64,000 nucleotides of DNA from Heterostelium album PN500 (lineage: Eukaryota > Evosea > Eumycetozoa > Acytosteliales > Acytosteliaceae). The notes under the pieces are model-generated. The model did no database searches. It was not told the origin of the DNA and saw nothing but the letters and a program-made list of their open reading frames with translations. The translations under genes were made by a program, and so were the position numbers. The stretch spans positions 1,178,001 to 1,242,000 of the forward strand of contig NW_008805068.1 in NCBI RefSeq assembly GCF_000004825.1, written 5' to 3'. Below, in pieces: positions 9,289-11,146 of this stretch (the stretch's first letter is position 1; every line of letters begins with the position of its first letter).

Positions 9289-9420
9289 GTTTGATAAATA
9301 TTAATATAATATCAATATAAAGGATATAAAATAAACAAATTCACATTCAAATTTAGTCTTTGAAAAAAAAATTGGTTTAGTTTCAATATATTTTTTTTTT
9401 TTTTTTTTTTGCAAAAAAAG

Positions 9421-9580
9421 ATTTGTTGACCTATGATCAGTCAACAAATTGCAGGTATTGATATTAACCTGCTAGTTCGTTTTTTATGTTATATTTACAT
9501 TCTCACACAGGCCGTGAGAAATATAGCCAGTTATATTATATATATTCTCACATAGATCGTGAGAAATAGCCAGTTATATT
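9421..9580. repeat. Cluster of hairpins and a short tandem repeat
   Basis: Four compact structures lie in 160 bp. A 10-bp-arm inverted repeat (9421-9430 with 9440-9449, ATTTGTTGAC/GTCAACAAAT) is followed by a 6-bp-arm hairpin (9451-9456 with 9467-9472). A tandem duplication of about 38 bp then follows (9499-9537 and 9544-9580). Each copy contains CTCAC...GTGAG and ends in GCCAGTTATATT. The cluster sits between the BP74-like gene and the left end of the TIR element. It could be a remnant of an older insertion or form structured RNA. Confidence 0.6.
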
Positions 9581-9605
9581 CTTTTATTTTTAGTTAGATC
9601 TATTC

Positions 9606-9836
9606 TGTAACGACAATACCACTTTTTCAAAATTCAAATTATTTTTCATTTTTAAAAACTCAACGACTATTCAAAAAAACGAACGATCAACTTTACCATT
9701 CAAGTTCTTACACTAACTCTGAATAGGTATGATCAATTTATATTTAATAAACATAAATTCAGTTCTTACACTAACTCTGAATAGTCTTTAAATTATTTGA
9801 GTTGATTATTAATAAATAAATAGACTGATCATCTAC
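9606..9836 (+). repeat. Left terminal inverted repeat of the element
   Basis: This 231-bp arm pairs with 10768-10998 in inverted orientation. It contains two direct copies of a 24-bp unit, AGTTCTTACACTAACTCTGA plus ATAG, at 9703-9726 and 9761-9784. Such subterminal repeats are typical recombinase-binding sites. The inner end overlaps the stop codon of the internal ORF. Confidence 0.9.
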
Positions 9837-10626
9837 TAGTACTTCTGACATGCAGAGCGGATTCTAGCCAATTTAAGAAGTGTTCCCATGTATCAGTAAT
9901 GTCACGCAATTCTTCAACTGATTTGAAACTTAGTCTGGAATGAACTGCTTCGATCTGGGAGATGGTGGAAATCGCTATTTCGACTCGTTCTGGTGAACAG
10001 TCGTGGTGGAGCTTAGCTCTAAAGGTCAAGTTATCTCTTGTTGTCTTGATTGACCTGTTATTAATATCGCTGATGGATAGTCTGAGTAACCTAAGTTCGG
10101 CATCGTTGTATTTTAACTGGGAGCTAGTTGAGGTACCTGTTGAATGTAATTGTGATAATCTCATTGTAGATGATTCGGTGGGTGGAGATTGTCGACTGTT
10201 GTTATTTTCATCATGGTGGTTTGATGAAGACTGACGATTGTTGTTGTTTTCATCGTCGTCGTGGTTTTGTGAACTGTCGCTCGTAAGAGAGTTGGAACGA
10301 GGTGTTGAGTGTTGAAGGAATGTTGATTGTTGTTTTACTTGGTCTTTTAAGCTGTTGATGAAACTTGCTTGAGTTTCAACGGTCGTATTCAGAACTCTGA
10401 TAATGCTTTCTGCTGACTCGTATCTCATATTGATCAATTGATACTCGCTCTTAAGACGTTCGTATTCATTAAGTAGTTTCTCCGTGTCAGGCACTTGCTC
10501 GTATATTCTCTTTCTTGCCAAGTCAGCGAGAGCCTTGAGTGTCATACCGCTGACGTTCTTGAGCTTGGTATAATCTATTGACGTATCACCGTCGAGAATT
10601 CTTTCTAATGTAGTTTTATCTGACAT
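9829..10626 (-). CDS. Unknown 265-residue coiled-coil protein encoded by the TIR element
   Basis: I do not recognise this protein. It starts MSDKTTLERILDGD inside the element and its TGA stop falls in the left inverted repeat. Residues about 45-105 look like a coiled coil (charged heptad-like stretch from the region PDTEKLLNEYERLKSEY). The middle (about 105-165) is Asn/Asp/Ser-rich and contains a duplicated segment of the form DENNN(N/S)RQS. The C-terminal 90 residues are a compact, non-repetitive region ending WLESALHVRSTSR. There is no DDE triad, RT, RING or zinc finger that I can see. Codon use is less AT-rich than the surrounding DNA and the frame is fully open, so the protein is probably under selection or the insertion is young. 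A gag-like or DNA-binding accessory role is possible. Confidence 0.7.
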   Translation of the reverse strand: MSDKTTLERILDGDTSIDYTKLKNVSGMTLKALADLARKRIYEQVPDTEKLLNEYERLKSEYQLINMRYESAESIIRVLNTTVETQASFINSLKDQVKQQSTFLQHSTPRSNSLTSDSSQNHDDDENNNNRQSSSNHHDENNNSRQSPPTESSTMRLSQLHSTGTSTSSQLKYNDAELRLLRLSISDINNRSIKTTRDNLTFRAKLHHDCSPERVEIAISTISQIEAVHSRLSFKSVEELRDITDTWEHFLNWLESALHVRSTSR

Positions 10627-10683
10627 TGTAAATGTTATTTTAAAGTATATAAAGATAATATATAAATATAATTAATTGATATC

Positions 10684-10695
10684 CTCCCCGGGGAG
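10684..10695. promoter_or_regulatory. GC-rich 12-bp palindrome upstream of the element ORF
   Basis: CTCCCCGGGGAG is a perfect palindrome lying 58 bp before the start codon of the element's ORF, in otherwise AT-rich sequence. GATATCC and a GGTATATCC half-repeat flank it. It may be a protein-binding site for transcription or recombination; this is inference. Confidence 0.35.
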
Positions 10696-10767
10696 ATTGA
10701 GGTATATCCTAAATAGATATTATATATATAAAGATAAAAAAAAGATTTAAAAAAGTTTAATAAATAG

Positions 10768-10998
10768 GTAGATGATCAGTCTATTTATTTATTAATAATC
10801 AACTCAAATAATTTAAAGACTATTCAGAGTTAGTGTAAGAACTTGAATTATGTTTATTAAATATAAATTGATCATACCTATTCAGAGTTAGTGTAAGAAC
10901 TTGAATGGTAAAGTTGATCGTTCGTTTTTTTGAATAGTCGTTGAGTTTTTAAAAATGAAAAATAATTTGAATTTTGAAAAAGTGGTATTGTCGTTACA
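10768..10998 (-). repeat. Right terminal inverted repeat of the element
   Basis: This is the inverted partner of 9606-9836, with the same length and two inverted copies of the 24-bp subterminal unit. It ends in GTCGTTACA, followed by a flank unrelated to the left flank. Confidence 0.9.
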
Positions 10999-11071
10999 AA
11001 ATTCTGCAAGATTTGTTAGAGGAAAAATTGAAATAAACCGCTTGCGGGATTTAATTTTTGGTTAGTTTAAC

Positions 11072-11075: not shown

Positions 11076-11146
11076 TGCGTTGTCCGGGAATCGAACCCGG
11101 GTCTCCTGCTTGGTAGGCAAGAATTCTGCCACTAGACCAACAACGC
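11076..11146 (-). tRNA. tRNA-Gly with anticodon ACC
   Basis: The minus strand folds as a tRNA of 71 nt without an intron. The acceptor stem is GCGTTGT/ACAACGC with discriminator A. The anticodon stem is CTTGC/GCAGG with loop CTACCAA, and the T arm is CCGGG-TTCGATT-CCCGG. The body closely matches eukaryotic tRNA-Gly(GCC), but the anticodon reads A34-C35-C36, decoding GGT. The D stem is weak (TCT/AGA pairing). The B box GGTTCGATTCC is intact and a T-stretch follows. A34 in tRNA-Gly is very rare in eukaryotes, so this is either a real GGU decoder or a variant or pseudogene copy. Confidence 0.88.

Follow-up and report, generated by a model that had tools for sequence, protein, structure and literature searches.

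A probable rearranged remnant of a Skipper-2-like retrotransposon beside a tRNA-Gly gene in Heterostelium album

A 1.4-kb unit with long inverted arms, found in a 64,000-nucleotide stretch of Heterostelium album PN500 DNA (hereafter the window), is almost certainly, judging from sequence comparison, what rearrangement has left of a Ty3/gypsy chromovirus of Skipper-2 type whose insertion sites lie downstream of tRNA genes. We take the unit to be immobile because it lacks pol, both of its ends are of the same type and it was not found repeated. The fuller explanation, in which this remnant arose through two opposite insertions at one tRNA-Gly gene followed by a deletion, is somewhat favoured as a whole; the two-insertion origin is its weaker part and still our first choice over an aberrant cDNA. 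A false candidate transposon family is thereby removed and its parent supplied, an intact Skipper-2-like element beside tRNA genes. The kind of element is already known; new are this Skipper-2-like family, represented by an intact copy, and its rearranged remnant. A literature search, shallow for most papers, recognised no report of opposed-LTR (long terminal repeat) Skipper-2 units and, among the papers listed, nothing relevant on inverted LTRs.

Results

The arms of the unit are LTRs and its open reading frame (ORF) is part of Gag, because an intact copy in the same genome (L009, Table 1) carries the arm sequence as a direct repeat and its ORF matches that of the window over residues 1-263. 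In the intact copy two 244-bp LTRs, 100% identical, enclose a single 1643-aa ORF without internal stops, and the element is bounded by the 4-bp target site duplication (TSD) GATT. It is intact and, given the identical LTRs, recently inserted. Its ORF matches the Pfam families RVT_1 (3.9e-26), RT_RNaseH (2.2e-27) and H2C2 (3.9e-15) above cut-off, with sub-threshold matches to rve (1.5e-6; 28.9 bits against a curated cut-off of 32.6) and Chromo (E 9.4e-5; 22.7 bits against 25.1), and no tyrosine-recombinase family is among its Pfam matches. When the C-terminal region was compared with solved structures, chromodomain chains ranked best, weakly (best E 0.0029). In the alignment to 7n27_A, read by eye, the positions that we take to be those of the aromatic cage change from Y to L, W to F and Y to D.

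The near-identical inverted ends running from TG to CA, described in an earlier note on this DNA, are real, with arms at 9606-9836 and 10768-10998 (231 bp, 98% complementary). An inverted-repeat search extends them to 9602-9836 and 10768-11002 (235 nt each, 98% complementary, spacer 931 nt), and the runner-up inverted pair listed in the 3.4-kb stretch around the unit has only 44 nt at 75%. With 98% complementarity over 231-235 bp, chance origin of the arms is not an issue. The outer termini, TGTAACG on the left and CGTTACA on the right, are both exact LTR 5' ends (U3 starts), and the arms differ from each other by 0 substitutions and two one-base length differences. The left LTR lacks its final 13-14 bases, ending at position 230 by alignment to the intact copy and at 231 when set against the right arm, and the right LTR is the 5' LTR of the gag fragment. 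The junction at 9836/9837 fuses LTR position 230 to antisense gag position 1161 with no microhomology and no parental overlap, and no target duplication spans the unit.

The same note had reported a single ORF unlike any transposase, reverse transcriptase or tyrosine recombinase, and this agrees with our Pfam search of the one 265-aa ORF, which gave no match above the curated cut-off. Its sequence match identifies the window ORF as the N-terminal portion of Gag, a name given by position, as neither it nor the 1643-aa ORF has a Pfam gag match. It is 98% identical to the first 263 residues of the intact ORF, the two differing at 4 synonymous and 4 non-synonymous codons among 263, too few for claims about selection; the residues SR and the stop that end it are read from the antisense LTR. 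Its predicted structure is all helical, at low confidence (mean pLDDT 50.5).

Table 1. Features of the unit and its surroundings (window positions), the intact copy, and the damaged loci of the family (contig positions)
Feature	Position	Strand	Remarks
Poly(A)-tailed high-copy repeat, 3' end	9391..9592	-	adjoins unit on left; TRE3-like by position
Left flank ATTC	9602..9605		differs from right flank AAAT (10999-11002)
Left LTR	9606..9836	+	LTR positions 1-230/231 of 244; 98.3% identity to L009 LTR
ORF, 265 aa	9829..10626	-	Gag-Pol residues 1-263, then SR and stop
LTR (+) / gag (-) junction	9836..9837		blunt, zero shared bases
Retrotransposon bases 1-1161 (5' LTR, leader, gag start)	9837..10998	-	98.97% identity to L009 element
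Pyrimidine-rich stretch CTTTTTTAAATCTTTTTTTTATCTTT	10730..10755	-	immediately after LTR, at primer binding site position; without TGG
Right LTR	10756..10998	-	complete; 99.2% identity to L009 LTR 1-244
Palindrome-like CCGCTTGCGG	11038..11047		between tRNA-Gly and unit
tRNA-Gly (ACC)	11076..11146	-	unit begins 77 bp past tRNA 3' end
Intact copy	C17:1175512-1181118 (L009 2513-8119)		5607 bp; same genome as window
Damaged locus 1	window unit		left LTR forward, element 1161-1 antisense
Damaged locus 2	C2:1138903		LTR to gag 774, then inverted LTR 244-107
Damaged locus 3	C6:450282		LTR 1-204, inverted gag 979-487, inverted 266-200, LTR tail; TSD CAGT
Damaged locus 4	C17:248735		inverted pol and LTR, then PPT and forward LTR
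Damaged locus 5	C14:760016		inverted LTR and leader pieces inside; LTR 10-74 then inverted 265-174

Further copies were sought throughout the genome from which the window comes (39 contigs, 32.9 Mb), all match counts being lower bounds. The unit as query gave at least 47 matches, a figure in which every LTR appears once per direction; a query with only the LTR gave at least 24, which were grouped by hand into 14 loci. The copies that the earlier note had suggested looking for thus exist in part: the arm and the gag part recur, and this arrangement of them turned up a single time. A 4-bp TSD is present at 7/7 loci that retain the left TG and right AAA LTR ends (GATT, GGTG, GATT, AAAT, ATAA, CAGT and TCCC at L009, L011, L012, L014, L015, L016 and L017, in that order), and L011, L012 and L015 are TSD-bounded solo LTRs. 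Internal sequence was matched at 8 or more places: one intact, five damaged with more than 300 bp, and two short isolated pieces (C3:1798707-1798814, 108 bp; C9:409431-409478, 48 bp), which were excluded from the count of damaged loci together with distant Ty3 families at about 30% identity.

At each of the five damaged loci that keep more than 300 bp of the interior, family pieces of at least 60 bp run in opposite directions, and the breakpoints differ among all five (Table 1); the opposed pieces at C14:760016 measure 40-83 bp. As a control we used the family of L078 (C8:197000-205000), a stretch of 8 kb that carries an intact Ty3-type element with a 1926-aa ORF and LTRs of about 600 bp and in which ARAGORN found no tRNA gene. 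Among nine damaged control loci whose remaining interior was judged by hand to reach about 300 bp or more, opposed sequence occurred in 1/9, 2/9 and 3/9 at thresholds of 100, 60 and 40 bp. The focal family gave 5/5 at both 60 and 40 bp and 3/5 at 100 bp, or 4/5 if the piece at C17:248735 is counted with its PPT (110 bp; 98 otherwise), with Fisher p values of 0.021 (60 bp), 0.031 (40 bp) and 0.095 or 0.023 (100 bp). Given thresholds chosen after the data had been seen, the excess of opposed arrangements over the control is suggestive only. The recombination between LTRs that produces solo LTRs requires direct repeats, so copies in opposed arrangement would be expected to keep their interior. 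The recurrent pattern could therefore reflect survivorship, together with shared tRNA landing zones that bring opposed copies together.

A tRNA gene was found at 13/14 LTR loci, always with the element on the tRNA 3' side (13/13) and with both element orientations represented; at the remaining locus, L018, none was found within the stretch scanned. The gap is 47-80 bp at eight of the 13: besides the window unit (Table 1), it measures 71 bp at L009, 221 at L010, 63 at L011, 163 at L012, 993 at L013, 54 at L014, 812 at L015, 216 at L016, 75 at L017, 68 at L019, 47 at L020 and 80 at L021, where the values for L010, L019, L020 and L021 run to truncated or diverged near ends. The tRNA genes were called with ARAGORN, and with Rfam for L014, L015 and L020; the L013 gene was called by ARAGORN alone and is not among the Rfam matches.

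The poly(A)-tailed repeat that adjoins the unit on its left appears, by position only, to be TRE3-like. It has at least 44 genome matches, 40 of them strong and the window copy included, and a tRNA gene lies at 13 of the 18 TRE3-like loci scanned (of 30 retrieved). This repeat shares the landing zone of the unit, so a tRNA gene here does receive more than one insertion. At L017 (2144-3360) an insert of about 950 bp splits an LTR; LTR positions 68-94 occur on both of its sides, the TSD TCCC lies outside, and on the right the insert has a TRE3-like repeat end (C22:79056-79194).

Discussion

The history that we prefer for the unit would begin with two family copies that landed in opposite directions on the 3' side of one tRNA-Gly gene. 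A deletion would then have followed, its ends sealed by blunt end joining so that LTR position 230 of the first copy met gag position 1161 of the second; what remained would be a pair of 5' LTRs facing inward, with 0.9 kb of leader and gag between them. The missing TSD is expected if the two ends come from separate insertions; the partner copies would sit in the deleted part, so neither insertion's own TSD can be checked. Two observations weigh against this history. Arms without substitutions suit two LTRs of one element equally well, and at C6:450282 an inverted piece lies inside a single TSD-bounded insertion, with CAGT on both sides. Our second choice is the joining of two cDNA ends (U3 to LTR 230 and U3 to gag 1161) during or after reverse transcription, the product entering the chromosome via integrase or by capture at a break. 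We consider this rather unlikely, even though it fits the C6 locus and C14:760016, where LTR 10-74 is followed by inverted 265-174 within one element, better than two insertions do. It would also account for the two outer ends, since a U3 start is where a cDNA naturally ends and both match one exactly, and for arms that are nearly identical, and the left LTR stops just short of the outer 3' arm of a predicted LTR-tail hairpin. Integrase-mediated insertion of such a two-U3 cDNA is disfavoured by the lack of the expected 4-bp duplication, and capture at a break does not itself explain why the spacing between the unit and its tRNA gene is the one typical of the family.

That the assembler joined two separate copies at 9836/9837 is very unlikely. 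The blunt junction, found a single time, would suit a chimera, but four other loci have different opposed arrangements, the right flank continues into the tRNA-Gly gene, and the gag part was not borrowed from the one intact copy, since the two disagree at 8/263 codons and further bases. Least credible of all is a true non-autonomous DNA transposon with terminal inverted repeats (TIRs), such as a partner of Ginger or Tdd-4. The long inverted ends and TG...CA termini, whose start fits TGTNR, do recall one; this pattern is, in the accessible text of PMC2836005, common to Ginger and Gypsy LTRs. The earlier note had proposed both an undescribed small TIR family and a Tdd-4/Ginger partner, and neither survives, since in the intact copy the arm sequence forms direct LTRs, the ORF is Gag, and there is neither a TSD nor a second copy found of the unit. 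Ginger/Tdd elements duplicate 4 or 5 bp of target according to the same partial source, which does not fit flanks of ATTC and AAAT, and the ends are not inverted in other copies of the family (direct LTRs at L009; solo LTRs with TSDs).

The note's remaining proposal, an internally deleted DIRS-like retroelement that kept a gag-like ORF, was right as to a deleted retroelement with gag only. DIRS-1, a Dictyostelium retroelement described in sources seen as excerpts, likewise has inverted terminal repeats around a gag-like ORF, but there the inverted repeats are by design and accompany a tyrosine recombinase, and descent from DIRS is ruled out by the direct LTRs and integrase domains of the intact copy. 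Another partial likeness is to the non-autonomous TR-GAGs of plants, in the excerpted descriptions LTR-bounded pieces that carry a gag ORF only; the window unit differs in its opposed LTRs and in the one copy found. TR-GAGs have direct LTRs and are mobile as families.

Skipper-2 (Dp_Skipper-2, Df_Skipper-2) is a group of dictyostelid LTR retrotransposons, and the parent element resembles it by described features, not by a tree. Within the accessible text of PMC5006619, the features common to both are the Ty3/gypsy domain order of reverse transcriptase, RNase H and integrase (rve being sub-threshold here), a chromodomain at the C-terminus, likewise sub-threshold here, whose cage residues 1 and 3 are lost (group II), insertion downstream of tRNA genes (13/14 loci here) and, where a TGG primer binding site (PBS) would be expected, a run rich in pyrimidines. 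In the parent family the LTR is followed by CTTTTTTAAATCTTTTTTTTATC, which is pyrimidine-rich and not pure; a polypyrimidine is not universal in Skipper-2 either, Df_Skipper-2 having a PBS (PMC5006619, same portion). The parent measures 5607 bp against 5676 and 5708 bp (PMC5006619, Table 1), its LTR 244 bp against 315 and 312 bp, and it has one ORF where Skipper-2 of D. discoideum, like Skipper-1, seemingly has two (PMC5006619). Unlike that of Skipper-2, the ORF of the intact element is without the CX2CX4HX4C knuckle, and the window unit is a rearranged fragment whereas Skipper-2 is a whole element. The predicted hairpin at the LTR tail, at positions of about 204-243 (window 10756-10795), adjoins the pyrimidine-rich stretch and may bear on how Skipper reverse transcription is primed.

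The unit could also act as a natural RNAi trigger against its own family, which by analogy with other systems is possible and, in our judgement, improbable. The LTR 5' ends lie on the outside, so any LTR promoter, its activity being assumed, would fire inward; sense and antisense RNA over the gag fragment would follow, with a hairpin for Dicer, and the recurrent opposed-LTR copies near tRNA genes would be an evolved or selected brake on a tRNA-targeting element. In the predicted sense RNA of the unit the arms pair at 230 positions, with a minimum free energy of -517 kcal/mol against -282 for an equal length of the intact element. The closest parallel is a D. discoideum knock-down cassette in which two facing DIRS-1 repeats around a gene fragment yield siRNAs of about 21 nt and lower expression of the target (PMC4482531, accessible part). 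That cassette is engineered, whereas the unit carries its own gag as target and is known from DNA alone. Opposing actin15 promoters formed no efficient Dicer substrate in the portion of PMC4482531 available, so facing promoters alone may be insufficient. An extended hairpin from a Skipper-1 fragment of D. discoideum has been proposed as a small-RNA source (Hinas et al. 2007, via an excerpt of PMC5633606) and is set beside the unit by description. If opposed-LTR copies do make small RNAs, a compact genome would build a silencing trigger from insertion wreckage at a shared landing site, and the unit would be the natural counterpart of the engineered DIRS-1 cassette.

A short palindrome near the tRNA genes, noticed in the window (11038-11047) and at L003, L004, L011, L014, L016, L017 and L019-L021 among other loci, is a possible downstream tRNA-gene element, on which a term search of the accessible text of PMC5391098 returned nothing. 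In a non-random sample of 44 distinct tRNA loci, CCGCNTGCGG lies 16-26 bp past the tRNA 3' end in 20, and the full palindrome occurs in 0/44 within 200 bp upstream. The window copy, 28 bp from its tRNA gene, falls outside the scan count because its middle base is strand-specific. The core CGCATGCG is found at 21-26 bp past the tRNA 3' end in 9 further loci of the 44, and CCGCATGCGG occurs at 63 sites across the genome, compared with 1 for a reversed control.
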